A model generated the notes under the pieces. The model was not told where the DNA came from and made no database searches. It saw only the letters and a list, made by a program, of their open reading frames with translations. Position numbers and translations under genes: made by a program. Below, piece after piece: positions 1-46,965 of a stretch of 46,965 bases of DNA. The number at the start of each line of letters is the position of its first letter. Position 1 is the first letter of the stretch. Source of the DNA: a virus; IMG/VR virus record IMGVR_UViG_3300042922_000909, positions 1 to 46,965 of that record. One strand, 5' to 3'.

Positions 1-365
1 GCGATGAAGTCCCATGCGCGTTGGATATCCGCCCGCTGCTCGTCTGTGCGGTACTTCTCGACAGGGATGTCCATCACCCATTCGCCTTGTGCAGGTGCGG
101 GAGTGGCGGCGAACTGCTCTAGGACGCGGCGCGATGCGTCAGCCAGAGCGTTCGCCTGAGCGACTATTTGGGTTTGAGATATTTCAGGATCGTACCCGTC
201 CCACCGTTTCAATGCTATCCGCAGCGCCTCTACCTGTTCCTCCGTCACGCCTTGTGGAGAGGGAGAGAGGGCGGTGAGGCGTGCAGCAAGTTCATCGCGC
301 TCGGCTCGCAGCGCCCGCACCATGTGAGGGCCATAGACCAGACCGTCGACTTCCACCGTATTCAT
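1..365 (-). CDS. DUF551-type phage protein, N-terminal part (gene crosses the window ends)
   Basis: The ATG lies at 365 on the minus strand and the frame stays open to base 1 (121 codons). The start overlaps the stop of the upstream gene at 362 as ATGA, so it is translationally coupled. The visible part is charged and probably helical. Reading on from base 1 into base 46965 on the same strand keeps the frame. It adds 57 residues containing KDGRW and ending in THWMPLP, then a stop at 46794 (178 aa in all). THWMPLP near the C-terminus is the hallmark of DUF551 proteins of temperate phages, whose function is unknown. This is the last gene of the leftward early operon. Confidence 0.8.
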   Translation of the reverse strand, partial: MNTVEVDGLVYGPHMVRALRAERDELAARLTALSPSPQGVTEEQVEALRIALKRWDGYDPEISQTQIVAQANALADASRRVLEQFAATPAPAQGEWVMDIPVEKYRTDEQRADIQRAWDFI

Positions 366-1601: not shown

Positions 1602-1735
1602 CGCCGCACCTGGGGAATGTCGCCGTATGGTTCGGCGTGCGGGTCGTGTGCTCGACGGGTTGTCGCGAGCGTCCAGAGGACTGCGATTCCCAACAACACA
1701 GCGATGGCGACAAGCGCGCCTGCTATCTCGGCCAT
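1598..1735 (-). CDS. Small single-pass membrane protein (45 aa)
   Basis: This 45-aa frame starts at ATG 1735 behind AAGGAGG with a 7-base spacer, the best ribosome site of the operon. Its start shares a base with the stop of the previous gene (TGATG), and its stop overlaps the next start (ATGA). The first 25 residues form one hydrophobic helix (MAEIAGALVAIAVLLGI...), followed by a polar tail, so the protein is probably membrane anchored with a cytoplasmic C-terminus. Its function is unknown. Early leftward membrane peptides in temperate phages often act in superinfection exclusion, but nothing here proves that. Confidence 0.65.
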   Translation of the reverse strand: MAEIAGALVAIAVLLGIAVLWTLATTRRAHDPHAEPYGDIPQVRR

Positions 1736-2049
1736 CACGCCGCCTCCTTGTAGAAGCGGCGTGCAAAACGCGCAGCGAGCTCCGCTCCGTCGAGATCATC
1801 GAGGAACAATTCGGAGAGTGCGCCGGCGCGGCTCAACTCGGAGGCGCGCACGGCTCTTAATCTTGGGAGGATGTCAGGGTCCGTGATTCTGACGGGCGCC
1901 CCATTCAAGAGTCGTCTTAAGGCGCCAGGGGCGCCTAGGACGACTTCAGCGCCGGCTTTGCGGGTGAACCCCGGGCGGCGTCTTAATCTGTCGGTCACCG
2001 AGCAGGCGAGGGGTCTTCTCGGGAGGGCGGTTGTTTGCTTGTTGCGCAT
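1735..2049 (-). CDS. Hypothetical protein, first gene of the leftward early operon
   Basis: This is a 104-aa basic protein without a recognised domain. The ATG at 2049 follows AAGGAG with a 7-base spacer. It starts about 25 bases downstream of the leftward operator/promoter block, so it should be the first gene expressed when repression lifts. Its stop shares a base with the following small membrane gene. The arginine-rich N-terminus could bind nucleic acid. That is a guess from composition only. Confidence 0.6.
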   Translation of the reverse strand: MRNKQTTALPRRPLACSVTDRLRRRPGFTRKAGAEVVLGAPGALRRLLNGAPVRITDPDILPRLRAVRASELSRAGALSELFLDDLDGAELAARFARRFYKEAA

Positions 2050-2126: not shown

Positions 2127-2834
2127 TTAGCCCAGGCCGGGGATGATAATTTTGTGCAATGCGTGAACATCACCGGCCGGGAACGGCGCGAGATCCTCGA
2201 GCTTTGGATTGAACTGCCGAAGCCGGAGCCCCTTCTTGTCGAACCCTATGAACTGTTTGACGTAGCCGAAGATATCGTCGGTGTTCGGGTCGCGAATCTG
2301 TGCCACCACGAAGTCATCCGGGCGGGGCTGCTTCCATGGGTGAACGAAGACCATCTCGCCGGGATAGAACCGCGGTATCATTGATGCCCCAACGACATAG
2401 AGCGCGTAGGAGTCGACCGCATCATCTATCCACGGCGGGCAGTCCGTCTGGTCTACCGTTTGATTCATGATCAAGTGGCCCTCCCCGAAGGGGCTGCCGG
2501 CAACCCGGCCAAGGACGGGGATCTTCCGGTAAGGGCGCACCGGCATGGGCGGGGCAGTATGCAGTAGGCCGCCACCCACAGCAGGATATCGCACGGTTGC
2601 CCCACCGCGCTCTCGGCGGGCGCCGCGCTGGGCATCACGCATAAGCTCGGCGAACAGCTCCTCGGGGATTTCAAGCGCGCTTGCGATTCGGCGCCAGCTA
2701 TTCGTCGGGGCTTTCGTCGCGCCGGTTTCAATCTGAGTTACGGCCTGCTGGCTGATTCCCGCCTCCTCGGCGAGCCGGGTTTGGCTCCAGCCCTTCTTTT
2801 CTCGCGTCTCGCGCACAAGCTCCGCGATATTCAT
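2127..2834 (-). CDS. cI: CI-type phage repressor, XRE HTH plus S24 peptidase
   Basis: The 235-aa repressor has an N-terminal XRE helix-turn-helix (residues about 5-60, WSQTRLAEEAGISQQAVTQ) and a C-terminal LexA/CI S24 domain. The catalytic serine is Ser151 in GASMIPRFYPGE and the lysine Lys193 in GYVKQF. Ala112-Gly113 in GRVAGS fits the self-cleavage site. In this family RecA filaments trigger cleavage, which inactivates the repressor and induces the prophage. The gene lies between two matching inverted operator blocks and is divergent from the rightward early genes. The ATG at 2834 is used because it places the HTH at the normal position. No strong Shine-Dalgarno is visible, as is common for repressor genes read from a maintenance promoter. 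Confidence 0.93.
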   Translation of the reverse strand: MNIAELVRETREKKGWSQTRLAEEAGISQQAVTQIETGATKAPTNSWRRIASALEIPEELFAELMRDAQRGARRERGGATVRYPAVGGGLLHTAPPMPVRPYRKIPVLGRVAGSPFGEGHLIMNQTVDQTDCPPWIDDAVDSYALYVVGASMIPRFYPGEMVFVHPWKQPRPDDFVVAQIRDPNTDDIFGYVKQFIGFDKKGLRLRQFNPKLEDLAPFPAGDVHALHKIIIPGLG

Positions 2835-4610: not shown

Positions 4611-4717
4611 AAGCTCTCAACGTCATCGGCCAAGTCGGGTTCTTGATCGGCACCATCGCGCTCGTAATCGCGCTTGTTCGAAAGGAGCAAGCCTACAATG
4701 GCAAAATCACTTTCTAG
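4607..4717 (+). CDS. Small membrane protein (36 aa)
   Basis: The ATG at 4607 overlaps the previous stop (ATGA). The frame encodes 36 aa with one hydrophobic helix of about 19 residues (VIGQVGFLIGTIALVIALV) and a short charged tail. It overlaps the start of the ATPase gene at 4698 by 20 bases, and its last codons contain that gene's ribosome site (AAAGGAG). It is either a real membrane peptide or an upstream frame that couples translation. Confidence 0.5.
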   Translation: MKALNVIGQVGFLIGTIALVIALVRKEQAYNGKITF

Positions 4718-5480
4718 TCTCAGATCCACAAAGAACAGCAAGCCGCCGCTCACGGTCGTCTATGGCGTGCACGGCGTCGGCAAAACGCAGCTCGCCAGCG
4801 AGTTCCCCGACCCGCTCTATCTCAACACGGCCGGCGAAACCCCGCCGTCTGATGTTGAACTCGCAACGCCTGGCACGATGGAAACGTTCGACGAGGTGCT
4901 CAACATCATCGGCGAACTTCTGACCACGGAGCACGACCACAAGACGCTCATCATCGACAGTCTCGACGGGCTTGAGCCGTTGGTGTGGGCTCAAACGTGC
5001 GCACAGAACGGCTGGAAGAACATCGAAGATGCGGGCTTCGGCAAGGGCTACGTCGCGGCGGACGCCGTGTGGCGTGACTTCCTTGCCGGGTTGGCGGCGC
5101 TGAAAGACGCCGGCATTGCAGTCGTGATGCTCGCACATAGCGATATCACGCGGTTCGATTCGCCAACGAGCGACCCCTACAGCCGATACGGCATCAAACT
5201 GCACAAGCGGGCGGGCGCTCTCGTGCAGGAGGCGGCCGACATCGTTGGGTTCGTCAATTACCGCGTGACTCTCAAGCAAGCCGACGCCGGTTTCAACAAG
5301 AAGGTGACGCACGGGGAGGGCGGCGGCGATCGGCAGATCCATTTCGAAGAACGGCCGGGCTTCCTTGCGAAGAACCGCTTTTCGATGCCGCCGAGCATGC
5401 CGCTCAAGAAGGGCGCCGGCTACTCCGAACTTCAGAAGTATTTTCCAGCCCCAACGGGCACAGCACAGGACGCGAACTGA
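4698..5480 (+). CDS. RecA-like phage ATPase (AAA_24, Sak4-type recombination protein)
   Basis: The 260-aa protein has a Walker A motif GVHGVGKT at residues 23-30 and a Walker B-like stretch TLIIDSLDG near residue 90. This is the AAA_24 family of phage nucleotide-binding proteins, which includes Sak4 single-strand annealing ATPases. These load on single-stranded DNA and promote strand annealing together with an SSB-like partner. The next gene encodes a DUF669 protein, the usual companion. ATG 4698 follows AAAGGAG. The stop shares a base with the next start (TGATG). Confidence 0.85.
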   Translation: MAKSLSSLRSTKNSKPPLTVVYGVHGVGKTQLASEFPDPLYLNTAGETPPSDVELATPGTMETFDEVLNIIGELLTTEHDHKTLIIDSLDGLEPLVWAQTCAQNGWKNIEDAGFGKGYVAADAVWRDFLAGLAALKDAGIAVVMLAHSDITRFDSPTSDPYSRYGIKLHKRAGALVQEAADIVGFVNYRVTLKQADAGFNKKVTHGEGGGDRQIHFEERPGFLAKNRFSMPPSMPLKKGAGYSELQKYFPAPTGTAQDAN

Positions 5481-7948: not shown

Positions 7949-9536
7949 ATCCTACCAGCAAGCGGCACTCGACGGACTGTTCGATTACTGGTCCGAAGAG
8001 CCCGGCAACCCATTGATAGACATGGCGACCGGCACCGGCAAAAGCCTGCTTATGGCCGCCATAACCGAACGCCTCATCACGGGGTGGCGGGACATGCGTC
8101 TCGTGATCGTCACGCACGTCGCGGAGTTGATCGAGCAGAATTACAAGGAACTGCTCGGCATCTGGCCGTTTGCGCCTGCCGGTATCTATTCGGCGGGGCT
8201 CGGCCGGCGGGACGCATTCGCGCAGATCCTGTTTGCCGGCATCCAGACAGTGCACAGCAAGGCCCAAGCCATCGGTCATGTCGACGTGCTGATGGTCGAC
8301 GAGGCGCACCTCATCCCGCCAAAAGCCGACACGATGTACGGCCGGTTCATCGCCGACCTGCGGGCGATCAATCCTGACATGAAGATTGTCGGGCTGACGG
8401 CAACTCCTTTTCGGCTCGGATCCGGCCGGTTGGACGAGGGCGACGACCGGCTGTTCGACAAGGTGATTTACACCTATGGCATCGCGGACGGCATTCGCGA
8501 TGGCTTCCTCTCCCCGCTCGTGTCCAAGGCGACCGAGACGGGCTTCGATCTCACGGGCGTTCAGAAAAGGGGTGGCGACTATGTTCCCGGTGCTTTGCAA
8601 GCTGCTGTCGATCGAGACGCAACCACTAAGGCCGCTGTTAGCGAGATTGTGGCTTATGGCCGCGACCGGCGGTCATGGATGGCGTTCTGTTCTGGAGTTG
8701 AGCACGCTCATCACGTTCGAGATGAAATCCGTTCGCGAGGCATTTCTTGCGAGACGGTCACGGGCGACACGCCGAAGCAGGAGCGCCGGCGACACATCGA
8801 AGACTTCAAGGCGGGGCGCATTCGCTGCCTGACAAACAATAGCGTGTTGACGACGGGCTTCAACGCGCCCGGCGTGGACTTGATTGCGGCGCTTCGGCCG
8901 ACCCTATCCCCGTCGCTCTATGTGCAGGCCGTAGGTCGGGGCACGCGCCTTGCTCCCGGCAAGACGAACTGTCTGGTGCTGGACTTCGCCGGGTGGGTGC
9001 GGACGCATGGGCCGGTGGACGACGTGCGCGCCCGCAAACCCGGCAAGGGCGACGGCGAGGCGCCCGTGAAGGTGTGCCCGGCCTGCCATAGCATCGTTCA
9101 CGCCGCGGCGCGGGAGTGCGTCGACTGTGGGCACCCGTTCGTCTTTGACGAGCACCCGAAGCACAAAGCGACCGCGGACGCGGGGCCGATTCTGTCCTCA
9201 GCGCAAGCCGAGTTCCGGCCGGTGGAGTGGCGGCGCTTCCGCTACCACGACAAACCCGGCGGCGTGGACAGCGTGCGCGCCGAGTTCTCGGTCGGGTTCA
9301 TCATGCACAAGCTCTGGCTCTGCCCGGAACACAAGGGCTTCGCCAAGACGAAGGCCGATCGCTTCTGGATCGACCACGGCGGGGCGCTGCCTTGTCCGCG
9401 CGCGGTCACGGAGTGGCTGGAGCGGGAAGGCGAACTTCGGGACACTGCGGAAATCAGCATCAAGCCGAACGGCAAATACTACGAGATCACCGGCTACCGG
9501 GTAGCGAACGACAACGAGGGGAGGGCGGCAGCATGA
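7938..9536 (+). CDS. SF2 DEAD/DEAH-box helicase with zinc-ribbon
   Basis: The 532-aa protein starts with a GTG (VQLRSYQQAAL) that overlaps the previous gene. Motifs in order: Q-like RSYQ, Walker A MATGTGKS, motif II VDEAH, motif III GLTATPFR, and C-terminal motif VI VGRGTRLAP. A CPAC-x(13)-CVDCG zinc ribbon follows, then a domain seen in phage helicases of this group. It is likely an ATP-dependent DNA helicase acting in phage replication or recombination. The C-terminal tail VANDNEGRAAA carries the recurrent ANDN element. The stop overlaps the methyltransferase ATG. Confidence 0.9.
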   Translation: MQLRSYQQAALDGLFDYWSEEPGNPLIDMATGTGKSLLMAAITERLITGWRDMRLVIVTHVAELIEQNYKELLGIWPFAPAGIYSAGLGRRDAFAQILFAGIQTVHSKAQAIGHVDVLMVDEAHLIPPKADTMYGRFIADLRAINPDMKIVGLTATPFRLGSGRLDEGDDRLFDKVIYTYGIADGIRDGFLSPLVSKATETGFDLTGVQKRGGDYVPGALQAAVDRDATTKAAVSEIVAYGRDRRSWMAFCSGVEHAHHVRDEIRSRGISCETVTGDTPKQERRRHIEDFKAGRIRCLTNNSVLTTGFNAPGVDLIAALRPTLSPSLYVQAVGRGTRLAPGKTNCLVLDFAGWVRTHGPVDDVRARKPGKGDGEAPVKVCPACHSIVHAAARECVDCGHPFVFDEHPKHKATADAGPILSSAQAEFRPVEWRRFRYHDKPGGVDSVRAEFSVGFIMHKLWLCPEHKGFAKTKADRFWIDHGGALPCPRAVTEWLEREGELRDTAEISIKPNGKYYEITGYRVANDNEGRAAA

Positions 9537-16743: not shown

Positions 16744-16976
16744 CAGTAGCTCTTGCCGCCAGCCACTATCCCGGCATCACACCGCAGATCGTAAGGCGCC
16801 CTGATGGTGGTCTTGCCCTGCATGTGCTCAATCAACAGGTCGAGGGCATGACGGTGCTCGGCATCGGAAAGAACGAAGAGGGCAAGGTAGTGGCAAGCAT
16901 CGTGCTTGACGTATCAAAGGCCGTCTTCGGCGAGGCTGATGGCACGGTGCATCGAGCACCCAACCTGCGTGTCTAG
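16740..16976 (+). CDS. Small hypothetical late-region protein (78 aa)
   Basis: From ATG 16740 the frame encodes 78 aa with alternating beta-strand pattern (GGLALHVLNQQVEGMTVLGI and KVVASIVLDVSKAV). An upstream in-frame extension is low-complexity and rejected. The stop overlaps the HNH gene start by 8 bases. No family is recognised. Confidence 0.5.
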   Translation: MTVALAASHYPGITPQIVRRPDGGLALHVLNQQVEGMTVLGIGKNEEGKVVASIVLDVSKAVFGEADGTVHRAPNLRV

Positions 16977-17250
16977 GTCATGGCGCAAGTGGTATGGCAC
17001 GGCACGATGGCAGGGCATGCGCATTGCGCAGCTGACAGCTAGCCCGCTGTGTCGCTTCTGCATCGAGCGTGAAGTCGTTGAGGTGGCAACGGTCGTTGAC
17101 CACGAACGCCCACACAGGGGTGATGAGGTTCTGTTCTGGGATACGAACAACCTTCAATCGTTGTGTGCACCATGCCATGACGGCACGAAGAAGCGCATCG
17201 AGATGGGCAAGGACGTGGTGCGGTTCAGTGCTGATGGGTGGCCGGTGTAG
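16969..17250 (+). CDS. Phage HNH endonuclease
   Basis: The 93-aa protein starts from a GTG at 16969 (VSRSWRKWYGTARWQGMR). Two zinc-binding cysteine pairs (CRFC and CAPC) frame the ββα-metal core: VDHERPHRGD, then TNNLQSLCAPCHDGTKK. HNH proteins beside terminase genes in HK97-like phages assist cleavage at cos. Its position 100 bases before terS fits that role. An earlier start at 16906 would overlap the preceding gene by 71 bases and is less likely. Confidence 0.85.
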   Translation: MSRSWRKWYGTARWQGMRIAQLTASPLCRFCIEREVVEVATVVDHERPHRGDEVLFWDTNNLQSLCAPCHDGTKKRIEMGKDVVRFSADGWPV

Positions 17251-17351
17251 CCCACCCCCCCCTTCGATCTCTGGAGATCGGCGCGGCCCGTACCGCCGTC
17301 CCCCCATTCTGCACGCATCTGCAATTCGAAATATGACCCCTGAGGTGAACC

Positions 17352-17750
17352 ATGGCCAAGCCGAGGACCCCCTCGGCTAAGGCGAAAACCGAAGGCCGGG
17401 AAAAGATAAATCCGGGCCGCTTTGCGACCCGAAAAGAGCCGAAGGTTGACGGCGCGCTGGGCGCGCCTCCCGCTTGGCTCAAGGATCATGAGAAGAACAA
17501 AGCCCGCGTTGCGTGGGCGTTGTTCCAAACCGAGCTTCCCTGGCTCAACCAATCGCATCGCGCCCTCGTCGAGATGGCGAGCAACATCCGCGGCCGCATG
17601 ATGGCCGGGGAGGATGTCGGAATCCAAGCGATGAACCTCTTGCGTCAGTGCCTCGGCCAAATGGGAGCGACGCCGGCCGACGCCAGCAAGATCACGGTGC
17701 CAGATGACGGCGAAGAAGACCCCGACGAGGCGTTGTTCGCCAGGCACTAA
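17352..17750 (+). CDS. terS: Terminase small subunit, P27 family
   Basis: The 132-aa protein has a basic N-terminus (PSAKAKTEGREKINPGRF) and a helical C-terminal domain with NQSHRALVEMASNIRGRMMAG, characteristic of P27-type small terminases. It recognises the packaging site and passes DNA to TerL. ATG 17352 follows GAGGTG. It overlaps the large-subunit gene by 47 bases. Confidence 0.85.
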   Translation: MAKPRTPSAKAKTEGREKINPGRFATRKEPKVDGALGAPPAWLKDHEKNKARVAWALFQTELPWLNQSHRALVEMASNIRGRMMAGEDVGIQAMNLLRQCLGQMGATPADASKITVPDDGEEDPDEALFARH

Positions 17751-19599
17751 GACGCCGGCACAAGATAGGGTTTCAGCATATGCGCGGGATGTTATTGAGG
17801 GTCGCATTGTTGCTGGTCCTCACGTTCGGAATGCGTGCCGGCGGCACTTCGCGGACCTTGAGAACGGCGCCGAGCGCGGTCTATGGTTCGATGAAGACGC
17901 AGCCGCGCACGTCTTCCGGTTTTTCGAAAGCGGCCTGAAGCTCAGCGAAGGACAGTTTGAGGGCATCCCCTTCAAGCTCCACCCGAGCCAGGCGTTCAAA
18001 CTCGGCTCAATCTTCGGCTGGAAGCGCGGTGATGACACTCGCCGCTTTCGTCGCGTCTACATCGAAGAGGGCAAGGGTAACGGGAAGTCGCCTTTCGCCG
18101 GCGGCGTTGGGCTTTACGGACTGACGGCCGACGACGAGGCCGGCGCGCAGATTTACGCGGCGGGCGCCCGGAAGGAGCAAGCGGGCATTCTGTTCGCGGA
18201 CGCCGTGAAGATGGTTCGCAAGTCGCCGGCACTGTCCAAGCGCGTAAAGCCGTCCGGCGGCATGGGCAAGGAATACAACCTCGCGCACCACGTTTCGCAG
18301 TCATTTTTTCGGCCGATCTCGAAAGAAGCCGGCAAGACAGGCTCCGGCCCGCGTCCACACTTCGCGCTTTGCGACGAGGTGCACGAACACCCCGACCGAT
18401 CGACCATGGAAATGCTCGAGGCCGGGTTCAAGTTTCGACGGCAGCCTCTCTTGCTGATGATCACGAACTCGGGCAGCGACCGCAATTCGGTCTGTTGGGA
18501 AGAGCATCAACACGGGATTCGCGTCGCGGCCGGGACAATGACCCCGGACGACGAGTTTAGCTATGTCGGCGAGCCCGTCGACGACGGCACGTTCGCCTAT
18601 GTGTGTGCGCTCGACGAGGGAGACGACCCGCTTACAGATCCGTCGTGCTGGCCGAAGGCTAACCCGATGCTCGGCACGATCCTGACCGAGCAATACCTGG
18701 CTGGCGAAGTCAAAAAGGCCGGCGATATTCCCGGCAAGCTCAACGGCGTGTTGCGCTTGAACTTCTGCGTCTGGACTGACGCCGATCAAGCCTGGATGCC
18801 GCGCGCCACCATCGAAAAGGTGATGGCGGACTTCGAACCGGAGGCCGAACACGCGGGTAAGTCGGTCTTTCTCGGCGTCGACCTTTCGAGCGCCAAGGAC
18901 ATCACGGCCGTTGCGTGCGTTGTGCCCACCGGTTTCAAGGAATTGACGCGCCCCGATGGGGAAGTGGTCAACCTCCCGACGTTCGACGCATGGGTGGAGG
19001 CCTGGACGCCCGGCGACACGCTTCTGGCGCGCGCCAAGGCCGATAACGCGCCGTATGACGTGTGGGTGCGAGACGGGTGGTTGAACGCCCCTGAAGGCCC
19101 GCGCATTCGTTATGACTTCGTGGCCGCCCGTGTCGCACAGATTGCCGGGATCTTCGATATCCAGGCAATCGCCTATGACCGCTACGTTTACGACCGCTTC
19201 AAGACGGAAGTGGACGCCCTCGGCGTCGAGGTCGAGCACGTAGCGCACCCACAGGGCGGCAAGGTCCGGGCTAAGCCCGAGCCATCGCGCGTTGAGGCTG
19301 CGAAAGCGGCAAGGCAACCGGCCCCGCAAGGCCTCTGGATGCCGGGTTCGGTGCTTGAGTTCGAAAACGCGATCATCGACGGGCGGATTCGACTGCGCAG
19401 AAGTCCGGTTTTGATGACCGCTCTTATGGGCGCGACGTTTGATCACGACGCGCAGGAAAACCGCTGGTTCGTCAAGAATAAGGCAAGCGTCCGTATCGAC
19501 GCCGCGGTGGCTCTTGCAATGGCTATCGGCGCCGCGAATGACGCCCCGCCACCCCGCAAAAAGTCGTTCTGGCAGACGCTGGACCCCGAGAAGGTGTAA
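17704..19599 (+). CDS. terL: Terminase large subunit
   Basis: The 631-aa packaging motor has Walker A EGKGNGKS (122-129), Walker B ALCDE (221-225), and a C-terminal RNase-H-like nuclease beginning at GVDLSSAKD (about 395) with further acidic residues near IAYDRY. It is of the HK97/Terminase_1 group. It pumps DNA into the prohead and cuts the concatemer. The start at 17704 lies inside terS. A later start cannot be excluded because the first 20 residues are weakly conserved in kind. Confidence 0.95.
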   Translation: MTAKKTPTRRCSPGTKTPAQDRVSAYARDVIEGRIVAGPHVRNACRRHFADLENGAERGLWFDEDAAAHVFRFFESGLKLSEGQFEGIPFKLHPSQAFKLGSIFGWKRGDDTRRFRRVYIEEGKGNGKSPFAGGVGLYGLTADDEAGAQIYAAGARKEQAGILFADAVKMVRKSPALSKRVKPSGGMGKEYNLAHHVSQSFFRPISKEAGKTGSGPRPHFALCDEVHEHPDRSTMEMLEAGFKFRRQPLLLMITNSGSDRNSVCWEEHQHGIRVAAGTMTPDDEFSYVGEPVDDGTFAYVCALDEGDDPLTDPSCWPKANPMLGTILTEQYLAGEVKKAGDIPGKLNGVLRLNFCVWTDADQAWMPRATIEKVMADFEPEAEHAGKSVFLGVDLSSAKDITAVACVVPTGFKELTRPDGEVVNLPTFDAWVEAWTPGDTLLARAKADNAPYDVWVRDGWLNAPEGPRIRYDFVAARVAQIAGIFDIQAIAYDRYVYDRFKTEVDALGVEVEHVAHPQGGKVRAKPEPSRVEAAKAARQPAPQGLWMPGSVLEFENAIIDGRIRLRRSPVLMTALMGATFDHDAQENRWFVKNKASVRIDAAVALAMAIGAANDAPPPRKKSFWQTLDPEKV

Positions 19600-40910: not shown

Positions 40911-41099
40911 ATGGAACGAGACGACGACGGCAGATCTCAGAGAATCACCGACGATTCCCCGCTTACGGTGGGGCTCTTACTAGCGATCGCCCGAGAAGCG
41001 CATCGGGATTGCCATATGCCAGGCTGCCCGCCGTCCTACGCCGCCGCGCTAGTTAATGCGATCGAGGGACTTGTGGAGAACCCTTGGCGGACCGGCTGA
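40911..41099 (+). CDS. Small paralogous family protein, copy A (62 aa)
   Basis: The 62-aa protein has the core LTVGLLLAIAREAH, then HMPGCPPSYAA and IEGLVENPWR. Copies B (41413) and C (42972) share it with about two thirds or more of the core identical. A and C are closest. No cysteine-ligand or enzymatic motif is recognised apart from the conserved H-D-x-H-M-P stretch. It sits behind a regulated promoter opposite an XRE gene. The family is unknown to me. Confidence 0.7.
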   Translation: MERDDDGRSQRITDDSPLTVGLLLAIAREAHRDCHMPGCPPSYAAALVNAIEGLVENPWRTG

Positions 41100-41412: not shown

Positions 41413-41622
41413 ATGTCGGAGTCTGTAACGCGGTCCGAAGCCGCGACCGAAGACGTGCGTCTGCCGTACACCGATGAGACGCCTGTTACCCTGGGAATGC
41501 TTCTCGCCATCGCGAGATCAGCCCACCGAGATCGCCACATGCCAGAGCCGCCGCCGTCGCTCGCCGTTGCTTATGTCGACGCGATTGAGAATCTGTTGCC
41601 GAACCGATGGCGGGGAGGGTGA
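41413..41622 (+). CDS. Small paralogous family protein, copy B (69 aa)
   Basis: The 69-aa protein has the same core (VTLGMLLAIARSAHRDRHMP, then PPSLAVAYVDAIENLLPNRW). It has lost the cysteines of copies A and C (DCHMPGC is RHMPEP). ATG 41413 follows AGGGGGA. Unlike the other two copies it has no divergent XRE gene but a 313-base structured leader. A terminator follows immediately. Confidence 0.7.
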   Translation: MSESVTRSEAATEDVRLPYTDETPVTLGMLLAIARSAHRDRHMPEPPPSLAVAYVDAIENLLPNRWRGG

Positions 41623-41664: not shown

Positions 41665-42522
41665 TCAGAGAAAAAAGTCGCCCTTCGTTATCTTCGCAAG
41701 GTTCTTCAGTGTGATGGCGAGGTCAGCCTTGCCGTCGCCGTTGATATCGGCATGGACGAAGATGTCGCCCTTCTTTTTCTCGTATCGGAGTTCGCCGGCC
41801 TTCTTGTGGAATTTCTCAGTGCCGATGAATTTGAATGCCTGATTGCCTTTTGCCTTTGAATTGGCGTCGATCCCGCGCAGATCAATCTTGTCTTTCTCGC
41901 CACGAGAGAAGTCGTAGATCGTATCGCGGCCTACTGTGAAGTTGGTGCTGTCCCGTTTGGCGAGATATACAAACTGGTCGGCGCCGCCGCCGCCCCAGAG
42001 GCTATCGCCTCCTTGGCCGCCGGTTATAGTGTCATTGCCGTCGCCGCCTGAGATGGTGTCCCGAGCTTCCTCGCCGAAAAAAGCATCGGCACCGCTGAAC
42101 CCCTCAAGGAGGTCGTTGCCCATTCCTCCAAAAATAAAGTCATCTCCAGAGAACGCGGCAGCCCAAAGGGTAATATCATCCTCCCTAGTCTCGGTCTCCG
42201 CGACCTGCCGGAGCGTGGCGTAATCAATCATGAGGCCGGACACGCTATTTGAAACCCCGGCATCAGGTGTTTCGCGGGCCATGCCCGTCACCGTGCCGGT
42301 GACGTTGCGCAGAATGTCTGTCGCAAAAGACCCATAAAGGAAAGTTTTCATCGACCAAATTTCGGTCGGCACCGTAAGGTGAAATATACTGCTGTATTGC
42401 GCGCTTGACCCGACGAAATCGGGGCCAAAAGCGATTTCTGGCGCGATCAATTGGCGGAAATTAAAACCCGAGACCGTGAAGTCCTTAGAGAGGATCACGT
42501 TCTTCCAATCAACAGTAGCCAC
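41665..42522 (-). CDS. RTX-type calcium-binding protein, probable type I secretion substrate
   Basis: From GTG 42522 (preceded by GGGGGG) the frame gives 285 aa. An N-terminal beta domain (1-120) is followed by RTX nonapeptide-like repeats at about 131-183 (GGMGNDLLEG, SGGDGNDTITGG, GGDSLWGGGGADQF). A C-terminal part includes DINGDGKADLAITL (EF-hand-like) and ends in GDFFL. Repeats bind Ca2+ after export, and the hydrophobic C-terminal end fits a type I secretion signal. No ABC exporter is nearby, so host machinery would be needed. The XRE gene upstream is on the same strand. The upstream in-frame extension is non-coding in style. Confidence 0.8.
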   Translation of the reverse strand: MATVDWKNVILSKDFTVSGFNFRQLIAPEIAFGPDFVGSSAQYSSIFHLTVPTEIWSMKTFLYGSFATDILRNVTGTVTGMARETPDAGVSNSVSGLMIDYATLRQVAETETREDDITLWAAAFSGDDFIFGGMGNDLLEGFSGADAFFGEEARDTISGGDGNDTITGGQGGDSLWGGGGADQFVYLAKRDSTNFTVGRDTIYDFSRGEKDKIDLRGIDANSKAKGNQAFKFIGTEKFHKKAGELRYEKKKGDIFVHADINGDGKADLAITLKNLAKITKGDFFL

Positions 42523-42619
42523 GGCAGCCCCCCAGATGGGCGGCCTCGCGCCCCCTGAAAAAATTTCCGGGGAACTGTGGCAAGGTGAACGCCGGTTGTC
42601 TATCCTCAACGCCAAAGCG

Positions 42620-42877
42620 CTAGTCGAATATGCTTGTCTGCCACGTGGTCGCGTACACCCCAGCGCCGCCCGCCTCATCGATAAACTTGATGCCCGCGCT
42701 TTCGAACGCGCGTCGGACCGCATCCTCGTTCGCCGCGGTCAGTTGTGTCCCGCTGTCAAATGCTTCCGCTCGGCGGATGGTAGCAACCCCAACCTGAGAC
42801 TTCTCGGCAAGATCCTCTGCACGCCAGCGGAGGATGGCTCGTGCTGCCCTGATCTGGAGTCCTTTGATACGTGACAT
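42620..42877 (-). CDS. Small XRE-family regulator upstream of the RTX gene
   Basis: The 85-aa protein from ATG 42877 (MSRIKGLQIRAARAILRW) has the HTH AEDLAEKSQVGVATIRRAEA and the usual small-XRE ending KFIDEAGGAGVYA. It is divergent from paralog C at 42972, with nested palindromes between them. It probably controls both copy C and perhaps the RTX gene 97 bases downstream. Confidence 0.8.
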   Translation of the reverse strand: MSRIKGLQIRAARAILRWRAEDLAEKSQVGVATIRRAEAFDSGTQLTAANEDAVRRAFESAGIKFIDEAGGAGVYATTWQTSIFD

Positions 42878-42892
42878 ATCAGATGAGCGCCT

Positions 42893-42951
42893 ATTGATCG
42901 TGATAAAAACTAGTGATATGTAAGCTATCACTTGAGTGATTTGCGATCAAT
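42893..42951. promoter_or_regulatory. Promoter with nested palindromic operators before copy C
   Basis: ATTGATCG (42893-42900) and CGATCAAT (42944-42951) form outer arms. AGTGATA (42912-42918) and TATCACT (42926-42932) form a perfect inner pair, and GTGATA recurs at 42900-42905. TTGATC (42894-42899) and TATGTA (42917-42922) are 17 bases apart and read right. It is the likely operator of the adjacent XRE protein. Confidence 0.65.
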
Positions 42952-42971
42952 CCACAACCGAGGAGAATGAA

Positions 42972-43181
42972 ATGAGAAGTCTCGATGTCCCTGTCAAAAT
43001 CGCATCTGCCTCGTGGCCGATCCTAACTGACGACACCCCGCTGACGTTGGGGCTTCTGCTTTCCATCGCCAAGGAAGCTCACTGCGACTGCCACATGCCA
43101 GGGTGCCCGCCTTCATATGCGGCCGCTCTCGTGAACGCGATTGAGGGTCTCGTCGAAAACCCGTGGCGCGGCGGCGCGTGA
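42972..43181 (+). CDS. Small paralogous family protein, copy C (69 aa)
   Basis: The 69-aa protein from ATG 42972 (AGGAG, 6-base spacer) carries the core LTLGLLLSIAKEAH, DCHMPGCPPSYAAALV and IEGLVENPWRGG, nearly identical to copy A. It is divergent from the small XRE gene and followed by a long hairpin. The function is unknown. Confidence 0.75.
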   Translation: MRSLDVPVKIASASWPILTDDTPLTLGLLLSIAKEAHCDCHMPGCPPSYAAALVNAIEGLVENPWRGGA

Positions 43182-43349: not shown

Positions 43350-43994
43350 ATGTGCAACCTATATTCCGTCACCAAAGGCCAACAGGCGATCCGCGATCTG
43401 TTCCGGGTCGGGCGCGATCTGACCGGCAACCTTCCGCAGCTTCCGGGCATCTTTCCCGACTACATGGCCCCGATCGTCCGGACCTCGCGCGACGGCGAGC
43501 GCGTGCTCGAGATGATGCGCTGGGGGTTCCCGCCACCGCCTAATCTGTCGAACTATCCGGTCACAAATGTGCGCAACACCAAGAGCCCGTATTGGCGTGG
43601 GTGGCTGAAGCCGGAATTTCGCTGCCTGGTGCCGTTCACGTCGTTCTGTGAGTACGAGGACACCAAGCCGCGGAAGACGCCCACGTGGTTCGCGCTGTCC
43701 GAGGAACGGCCGCTCGCCGCCTTCGCTGGCATCTGGCGACCATGGACAGGCGTGAGGGGCACCAAGGCCAACCCGGTCGAGGGTGAGCACCTCGTCTTCA
43801 GCTTCCTGACCACGGACGCGAATGCCGAAGTCGGTACGATCCATCCGAAGGCCATGCCGGCTATCCTGACGACGGCCGACGAGTTCGACGCCTGGTTGGC
43901 GGCACCCATGGAAGAGGCGCTGATGCTTCAGCGGCCGTTGCTGGATGGCGCGCTCCAGATCGTAATGAAGGGCGAGCGGGAGGACGCTGCCTGA
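43350..43994 (+). CDS. SRAP (YedK/HMCES-type) DNA-protein crosslink enzyme
   Basis: The 214-aa protein starts Met-Cys2 (MCNLYS). It has the SRAP catalytic set: Cys2, Asn73 (TNVRN), Glu101 (SFCEYE) and His165 (GTIHPKAMP). SRAP enzymes covalently trap abasic sites in single-stranded DNA. The start ATG is fixed because Cys2 must be exposed after Met removal. It stands alone on the plus strand. It may protect phage DNA during replication or be a host-derived gene. Confidence 0.9.
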   Translation: MCNLYSVTKGQQAIRDLFRVGRDLTGNLPQLPGIFPDYMAPIVRTSRDGERVLEMMRWGFPPPPNLSNYPVTNVRNTKSPYWRGWLKPEFRCLVPFTSFCEYEDTKPRKTPTWFALSEERPLAAFAGIWRPWTGVRGTKANPVEGEHLVFSFLTTDANAEVGTIHPKAMPAILTTADEFDAWLAAPMEEALMLQRPLLDGALQIVMKGEREDAA

Positions 43995-44443: not shown

Positions 44444-44670
44444 TCGGTTTGCAAACACCTTGCAAGCTATTGATCTTGTTAGGACGCTTTTTGCCTCGGT
44501 TTGCACCTAACCGATTGAACTCTTTACTAAAGCACAGGACTCTTAATCAGCGGGTCCAAGGTTCGAGCCCTTGTGCACCCACCAATTTTCCCCAATAATT
44601 ACATGGGGTTAGGTGGACGACCAGACGGAACAGGCAGGAACGGTTTTTTCGGTTTGCAGTTCGGTTTGCA
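44444..44670. repeat. attP arm-type repeats
   Basis: TCGGTTTGCA occurs four times in direct orientation: 44444-44453, 44496-44505, 44649-44658 and 44661-44670. Two copies lie on each side of the tRNA-derived core. Four identical 10-mers in 230 bases next to the integrase gene are the expected arm-binding sites of a tyrosine recombinase. Confidence 0.8.
44537..44584 (+). other. attP core: 3' half of a tRNA-Lys (anticodon CUU)
   Basis: The stretch contains the anticodon loop CTCTTAA (anticodon CTT at 44542-44544), a perfect T arm (CAAGG-TTCGAGC-CCTTG), and the acceptor end TGCACCCACCA. No 5' half of a tRNA is present upstream, so this is not a functional tRNA gene. It is the copy that restores the host tRNA-Lys gene when the phage inserts. 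Arm repeats lie on both sides, as in attP. Confidence 0.85.
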
Positions 44671-44678
44671 GGTTTCGT

Positions 44679-45746
44679 TCACGTCCCGTACTTTCCGGCC
44701 ATCTTCAACATAGCGGTTTCGGCCAATTCAAACTTGCCGCCGAGGTAGTGTGCGTCGAGTAGGGCCTCAACATCCTTTAGGCTGTGGCCAGTGATGGAAG
44801 CTATCTCCGGTACGGTGCAACCGGCGAGCGCCAGGCGAGTAACGGCCGTTCCCCGCAGGTCGTGGAAGTGCAGGTCGCCGAGCGTCGTTTTTGCAAACGC
44901 CTTGTTCCACGACGTGCGGAATCCATCCTCGGTCCACGGCAGGTCCTTGCGCTGGTTTATGAGGATGGTCGTCGCCTTCCGCGGCGCGGCGTCGAGTGCC
45001 AGCTTCAGCGGCTCGCCAACCGGGATGGAAACGCGCTTCCCACCTTTCCCCTGTCGAAGCCGGATATGTGTCCCGTTATATGCCGACCACGGCAGGGCAA
45101 GGAGGTCGCCTTGCCGCTGGCCGGTCCATAGCGCCATGAGAAGCGCGAATTGGAGGGCAGGGGAGGCAACGGCGCCGAAGGCTTTGATATCTTCCGCGCT
45201 CCAGATCTTCTCGGCCCTGTCGGCCTCGTATAGCCGTCCACCGCGCTCGCACACGTTGACGGTGATCCGCCCGCGGTCCTTGGCTACCGACAGCACCCGC
45301 GCGAGCACCGTCCAGGCGTAGTCCGCCACGCGCGGCCGATCGGCCATCGTATCGCGCCACGCCTTGAACTCACCTCGAGCCTTGCGGTGCTCAACGTCGT
45401 CTGTGGTCATTTCGCCATGGGCCTCCTCAATCATTCGGAGGTATCGACCATAATCGCGACGCGTCTTTTCGCTCCTGCTGGTAAATTCGGACGAGGTTCG
45501 ATATTCGGCGACGAGGTTGAACATCGTGCCCCGTGCCGGAGTTTTGCGATCCCGGTGCGCGTCCGTGTATGCCACGAAAAAAAGCGGGCTACCCGGCGAC
45601 AGCGGGTTCCCATCCTTGTCCTTTAGCAAAGGACCGCCCCTCCAAGCGTAATAATATTTACGTTTGGTTCCGTCAGCTAGGGTCTTAGTAGCACACGCCA
45701 CCCCTGGCAGCTTTTCGCGCATCTCGTTCACGTTTCCGACGATCAT
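44679..45746 (-). CDS. int: Tyrosine recombinase integrase
   Basis: The 355-aa protein from ATG 45746 (AGAGGA upstream; ATG 45722 is an alternative) has an N-terminal arm/core-binding part (LADGTKRKYYYAWRGG) and a catalytic domain with Arg in TGQRQGDLL, HDLR, GHSLKD and the nucleophile Tyr in DAHYLGG. It reads toward the attP core about 95 bases away. It carries out insertion into and excision from the tRNA-Lys gene. It overlaps the excisionase-like gene by 62 bases. Confidence 0.93.
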   Translation of the reverse strand: MIVGNVNEMREKLPGVACATKTLADGTKRKYYYAWRGGPLLKDKDGNPLSPGSPLFFVAYTDAHRDRKTPARGTMFNLVAEYRTSSEFTSRSEKTRRDYGRYLRMIEEAHGEMTTDDVEHRKARGEFKAWRDTMADRPRVADYAWTVLARVLSVAKDRGRITVNVCERGGRLYEADRAEKIWSAEDIKAFGAVASPALQFALLMALWTGQRQGDLLALPWSAYNGTHIRLRQGKGGKRVSIPVGEPLKLALDAAPRKATTILINQRKDLPWTEDGFRTSWNKAFAKTTLGDLHFHDLRGTAVTRLALAGCTVPEIASITGHSLKDVEALLDAHYLGGKFELAETAMLKMAGKYGT

Positions 45747-45963
45747 AATCGTCCTCTGGCACCGCAGCTTCACCCAACCCACTCAGCTTGTCCAAGTGCA
45801 CGTCGATCGCCCGCCGATCCCATCTTCTCGTCGCCGACAAAGCGGGCGGCATCGAGCCCACCAGCACCCACTTGGCGAACGTCGGCGCGCTTACCCCGCA
45901 ATAGGCCGCCGCCTGCTTCTGCGTCATCAGGCGGGCGGGGGAGTTATCATTCGCTGCCTTCAT
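45685..45963 (-). CDS. Excisionase-like helix-turn-helix protein (92 aa)
   Basis: The protein has the winged-HTH/AlpA-like motif LMTQKQAAAYCGVSAPTFAKWV and RWDRRAIDVHLDKLSG, as in small excisionases and MerR-like DNA-binding proteins. It is directly upstream of, and overlaps, the integrase gene. It probably directs excision by bending DNA at the attachment site. The N-terminus again has the ANDN element (MKAANDNSP). Confidence 0.8.
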   Translation of the reverse strand: MKAANDNSPARLMTQKQAAAYCGVSAPTFAKWVLVGSMPPALSATRRWDRRAIDVHLDKLSGLGEAAVPEDDYDRRKRERDARKAARGGVCY

Positions 45964-46545: not shown

Positions 46546-46791
46546 ATGGCCTACCTGTGGTTTTCCGAACCCGTCCCCGTGTGGATCAAGCCGACCAAAT
46601 GCAAGCACGTCTCGCATGTGGAAGAGGCGGCTGAGGTGATGCTGCGGAACTGGCCCAAGGGCAAAGGTCGGCAAGCCTGCCTGACCGCCCGCATCGCCTG
46701 CTTGGCTGCGTTGGACGGAACGGGGAGCATCGAAGAAGCCCGCTCCGCTTTTGAAGCCGCAGCTCGTGAGGCTGGGATTTTGGGGAAATGA
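46546..46791 (+). CDS. DUF982 family protein
   Basis: The 81-aa protein has FSEPVPVWI, HVEEAAEVMLRNWPKGKG and IEEARSAFEAAAREAGIL, the pattern of DUF982, a small family largely limited to Rhizobiales. It stands alone on the plus strand, facing the end of the leftward operon. It is probably a host-derived moron with unknown function. No clear ribosome site precedes ATG 46546. Confidence 0.8.
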   Translation: MAYLWFSEPVPVWIKPTKCKHVSHVEEAAEVMLRNWPKGKGRQACLTARIACLAALDGTGSIEEARSAFEAAAREAGILGK

Positions 46792-46793
46792 GG

Positions 46794-46965
46794 TCATGCG
46801 GGCTCCTTCGGGGGAGGGGGAAGGGGCATCCAGTGAGTGGGGCTCCGCAATTCGCAAACGCAAAAGCCAGCGTCCTCATGCCATTGGCAAGGGCACACCA
46901 GATCAGGCAGTTCAAGTTCAGCGCCCGGCGCGAACACGATGATCCAGCGACCATCCTTCGGAGCC
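46794..46965 (-). CDS. DUF551-type phage protein, C-terminal part (joins the gene at 1-365)
   Basis: The minus-strand frame is open from base 46965 to a stop at 46794 and contains KDGRWIIVF, a Cys-rich middle and THWMPLPPPP near the end. The two bases left over at 2-1 and the first base here complete a codon, and total length 537 nt is divisible by three. This is direct evidence that the two window ends are contiguous in the molecule. Confidence 0.8.
   Translation of the reverse strand, partial: APKDGRWIIVFAPGAELELPDLVCPCQWHEDAGFCVCELRSPTHWMPLPPPPKEPA

Follow-up and report, generated by a model that had tools for sequence, protein, structure and literature searches.

The window analysed here, a whole IMG/VR virus record of 46,965 bases, probably represents the virtually whole genome of an alphaproteobacterial temperate siphovirus, a near-complete circular map that was opened in one gene and that appears to have lost one codon of that gene at the seam. 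That the two ends lie within a few bases of each other on the circular map is very likely, and this adjacency is well supported by comparison with related sequences. Judging from its gene layout, the contig is a circular map opened between the xis-like gene and the repressor gene.

The gene set of a temperate siphovirus, with integrase, repressor, terminase, portal, capsid, tape measure and tail genes, is found in a single map. Packaging, structural and integration genes (integrase, terminase subunits, portal, protease, major capsid, tape measure and tail tip proteins) are present once each, as are the recombination and replication genes (Sak4, SSB, Cas4-type exonuclease, helicase, methyltransferase and primase) and those for a CI-type repressor, an SRAP protein and a DUF982 protein. 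The sequence-only reading, according to which all phage modules are present exactly once, is thus borne out as far as the identified genes for packaging, structure, replication and integration go. At the left of the window, a small minus-strand ORF, g1735 (1735..2049), adjoins the minus-strand repressor gene (2127..2834; helix-turn-helix and S24 peptidase domains) and is conserved in two related records, G007 and G049. The Sak4-like recombination gene (4674..5480, plus strand; PHROG 124, E 2.5e-40) is the first conserved rightward gene and served as the anchor for the synteny test. Farther along, a plus-strand HNH endonuclease gene (16906..17250), whose Pfam HNH score of 20.2 bits falls just under the cut-off of 21.4, precedes the terminase genes, a position conserved in relatives. 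The small (17352-17750) and large (17704-19599) terminase subunit genes, both on the plus strand, have PHROG matches. Toward the right end, the tyrosine-type integrase gene (longest frame 44679..45782, minus strand; PHROG integrase, E 3.7e-33) is 49-60% identical to those of relatives, and its true start probably lies further inside the longest frame. The xis-like helix-turn-helix gene (45685..45963, minus strand) gives a weak HTH_17 match under the Pfam cut-off, and its homologues are found directly before the integrase gene in five relatives (L003-L007). Just inside the right end, the final complete gene codes for a DUF982 protein (46546..46791, plus strand; Pfam 61.6 bits), a homologue of which adjoins the left-end genes in G007 and G049. 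As for related phages, relatives of the large terminase are found among Rhizobium phages, at no more than 70% identity, and IMG/VR contigs, at no more than 77%. Megablast found no match to any phage record with queries 1-25000 and 22000-46965, there was no nucleotide match in plasmids to query 1-25000, and a search for nearer relatives with the repressor as bait found none.

The gene in which the map is opened lies on the minus strand. Its N-terminal part (1..365) comprises an ORF of 121 codons (365..3) starting with ATG at 365, followed by two bases of codon 122, which is made up of bases 2, 1 and 46965. The C-terminal part (46794..46965) contributes the third base of that codon, 56 further codons (46964..46797) and a stop codon (46796..46794). 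The frame open at base 1 had been said to run in frame into that open at 46965, and the 178-residue joined ORF confirms it. The proposed DUF551-like C-terminus was also recognised, by Pfam PF04448 (cut-off 22 bits), with scores of 28.9 bits for the C-terminal 56 residues and 23.7 bits (E 9.2e-5) for the joined protein. The match spans residues 125-175 only, wholly on the right-hand piece, and the left piece alone gives no DUF551 match in Pfam. Alignment of the joined protein with DUF551 proteins, which had been suggested as a check on circularity, crosses the seam through the start motif of the domain, with W and I on the left piece and A and P on the right, but not through the Pfam match. We found no full-length homologue of the 178-residue protein in viral contigs or genome contigs, and among solved structures no match below E 0.7. 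Its one weak match among phages, to Acinetobacter phage Acjo_20 (query 107-176, E 0.02), runs over two annotated genes.

The joined ORF was dropped as the main evidence for closure after a random-join control, in which 20,000 pairs of unrelated positions in the window were joined and each join was searched for an ORF of 178 residues or more running across it, with at least 55 on each side. Such ORFs were present at 8163 of the random joins (about 41%), compared with 11,962 of 20,000 truly contiguous points. On its own, the joined ORF thus favours adjacency only about 1.5-fold and is weak evidence, near chance.

Better evidence of adjacency comes from the start motif of the DUF551 domain, W..I followed by two residues and (A/S)P. 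When eight proteins are aligned, two invariant residues, W118 and I121, fall on the left piece, and A123 and P124 on the right. An in-frame W..I at the frame end was found in 39 of 32,651 open 20-codon frames, and its presence just before the seam is thus unlikely by chance. In a survey of DUF551-like ORFs from 243 loci, the motif was present in 74 distinct sequences, in each of which two residues separate I from (A/S)P; five further ORFs lack the motif, and a spacing of a single residue, as at the seam, occurs in none. As the motif is one residue shorter than in these 74 relatives, the contig probably lacks three bases, one codon of the split gene, at this point. Alternatively, a natural one-residue deletion in the motif is possible. 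At the DNA level, five IMG/VR contigs show the pattern with the shorter spacing, and a DUF551-like end is found in none of them. The pattern with the usual spacing was detected in at least 120 IMG/VR contigs, and 49 of the 82 matches checked, in 80 loci, pass a strict test for a DUF551-like end.

Gene order was compared using 36 proteins of the window and the joined protein against 19 related records, some of them covered in part; the methyltransferase query of this set was out of frame, and its result is uninformative. Genes of the right end (integrase, xis or DUF982) and of the left end (g1735, repressor or Sak4) are both present in five of the 19 records (G001, G002, G004, G007 and G049), and in all five they are neighbours, as a circle predicts. 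The other 14 have genes of one side or neither, which is uninformative on the seam. The order in G002 (the record of L004), namely integrase(-), xis(-), repressor(-), Sak4(+), SSB, Cas4, helicase, primase, VRR, HNH, terminase, portal, protease and capsid, is the circular order of the window. In G001 and G004, which are opened elsewhere, the xis-integrase pair adjoins Sak4. In G007 (the record of L011), the repressor gene and g1735 are about 3 kb from the DUF982 and DUF551 genes, whose order is swapped. The left end of G049 (the record of L083) reads DUF982(+), g1735(-), repressor(-), Sak4(+), and its right end matches the integrase weakly (27%), which indicates that this record is opened at yet another point. 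More generally, the circle shares with related temperate phages and prophages of IMG/VR (G049, G007 and G002) the order of integrase, xis, repressor, Sak4, SSB, Cas4-type exonuclease, helicase, HNH, terminase, head and tail genes; these relatives are mosaic and distant, with large terminases at most 77% identical, and each record is opened at a different point. Rhizobium phage RHph_Y3_1 (MN988490) was compared by its terminase only (70%). As for DUF551 itself, G008, G017, G028 and G039 harbour a whole minus-strand gene 4.4-7.9 kb to the left of Sak4, with 87-139 codons preceding the motif; in the window, the split gene starts 4.3 kb to the left of Sak4. The position of DUF551 is inconstant, since the DUF551 genes of G001, G002, G003 and G005 are not beside xis. 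Of a different nature is a region at about 36-40 kb of G039 (the record of L069), where a second HNH, HK97-gp10-like and tape-measure match is found between terminase and portal, as if a part of another phage had been inserted.

Two candidate sites where a phage map would be cut are intact in the window. Behind the integrase gene, positions 44539..44584 (plus strand) correspond by eye to the 3' part of a tRNA-Lys gene (anticodon CTT) and are the likely attP core. Allowing up to three mismatches, the window has no second copy of this segment. The same core lies behind the integrase homologues of L003, L007 and L250, three of the five relatives with enough sequence there; in L005 and L006 the integrase gene is not directly followed by such a core, and L004 breaks off too early to show it. 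ARAGORN and Rfam reported no tRNA or other RNA in the window. The assignment is suggested by the reading by eye, by the recurrence of the core behind related integrases and by its matches to plasmid records, many of them alphaproteobacterial, which carry no tRNA annotation. The second site, a conserved non-coding block just before the small terminase gene (17300..17340, plus strand), is a cos or terminase-binding candidate. A common regular expression matched 19 of the 26 distinct relatives displayed, and the other seven differ slightly by eye. Among 72 loci with the small terminase gene, six begin 19-225 bases before its start and two within it; G004 likewise starts 45 bases ahead of the gene. 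These contig ends may be cos cuts or may fall there by chance, and the block is a cos candidate only. With both candidates contiguous, and the contig ends falling inside one phage-type gene, the contig corresponds neither to an integrated-prophage map nor to a cos-cut map.

Other features of the region around attP were noted. Between the lysis genes and attP, a minus-strand ORF with RTX-type calcium-binding repeats (41665-42723; Pfam HemolysinCabind, 42.3 bits) is probably cargo. Three short plus-strand ORFs (40911-41099, 41413-41622 and 42936-43181) appear paralogous by eye, with a core around T-P-L/V-T-L/V-G; the first and third are each beside a divergent minus-strand frame resembling a small helix-turn-helix gene. 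The accessory region also harbours the gene for the SRAP (SOS response associated peptidase) protein (43350-43994, plus strand), which is found near the same place on the opposite strand in G010, G017, G028, G039 and G049.

No exact terminal overlap was found at lengths of 1-1999 bases, matches between the first and last 3 kb do not exceed 12 bases in direct or inverted orientation, and no other contig carrying the seam was found, even with up to 30 extra bases allowed. According to excerpts of the CheckV paper (PMC8116208), a closed genome has a direct or inverted terminal repeat of at least 20 bases; this record has none. The same excerpts state that, during assembly, circular templates seem to be opened at random, leaving a repeat of k-mer length. 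The record thus resembles the circular viral contigs described there, closed by direct terminal repeats, in its circular and apparently whole gene map, but differs from them in the absence of the repeat. An absent repeat, combined with ends that meet to about one codon, is in keeping with an assembly graph that was circular but was broken by a short variable or uncovered stretch. The source DNA would have been circular or concatemeric, and its assembly would have ended as a linear contig. A likely cause is a short stretch at the seam, variable or poorly covered, on both sides of which a graph assembler would stop, in which case no overlap would be left and only that short stretch would be lost. 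Of the complete circular genome proposed by the sequence-only reading, the adjoining of the ends is retained, given the gene order in relatives and the uncut attP and cos candidates. Closure exact to the base is not, given the missing repeat, a seam seen in no other contig and a motif one residue short.

Several observations do not favour a near-complete circle lacking one codon, including the near-chance value of the joined ORF, a seam without counterpart in other contigs, the lack of a full-length homologue and the swapped DUF982 and DUF551 genes of G007. Moreover, xis and Sak4 are 5.7 kb apart here and 7.0-11.2 kb apart in G001, G002 and G004, so that a longer loss is possible. The ends would then face each other across a gap of tens of bases to some genes, the in-frame fit being due to luck. 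The frequency of long spanning ORFs at random joins is compatible with such a gap, but it would leave the in-frame W..I within one residue of its expected place to chance (39 of 32,651 frames), and we regard it as very unlikely. It is also conceivable, if unlikely, that the genome is an exact closed circle, circularised and trimmed without loss, with a real 178-residue protein whose motif is naturally one residue shorter. The frame kept over the seam and the W..I residues in place agree with this, and the gene order of relatives fits equally well. However, none of the 74 motif-bearing DUF551 sequences has the shorter spacing, nor do the five IMG/VR contigs with the short DNA pattern have a DUF551-like end. 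Finally, the absent repeat and a seam found in no other contig might be expected of a linear prophage fragment, a cos-cut virion genome or a chimera with unrelated ends. This seems highly implausible in view of the single, uncut attP candidate, the uncut cos candidate and the five related records in which genes of both ends are neighbours.

On the preferred reading of a near-complete circle opened in one gene, the product of the split gene can be compared with Ea22 of lambdoid phages. As described in part of a study of that family (PMC10834534), the Ea22 V2 variant has a DUF551 C-terminus, and ea22 is located between exo and xis. Both proteins have a DUF551 tail behind an N-terminal extension, both genes are in an early region near xis, and their sizes are similar (178 residues here, 182 for lambda Ea22). 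Pfam at E up to 10 lists DUF551 only for the joined protein, which thus lacks the Ead/Ea22 N-terminal signature of Ea22, with which we compare it rather than class it. By its layout, the product is most likely an Ea22-type early protein, with a variable N-terminal part, a portable DUF551 tail and a putative role in the lysis-lysogeny decision. It is tempting to speculate, although we consider it quite unlikely, that the split gene codes for an Ea22-like lysogeny factor, that alphaproteobacterial temperate phages carry such a protein, with its variable N-terminal part and DUF551 tail, in the xis-repressor-Sak4 region, where it would act like Ea22 of lambdoid phages, and that the seam codon is polymorphic in the source population, which would be why the contig broke there.

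That the ends of a contig meet on a circular map is an ordinary finding. In a GC-rich genome, a long ORF over a contig seam is poor proof of closure; the spacing of a family motif and the gene order in relatives are informative instead, and can even reveal a missing codon. For this phage of Alphaproteobacteria, they indicate a genome that is usable as essentially whole.
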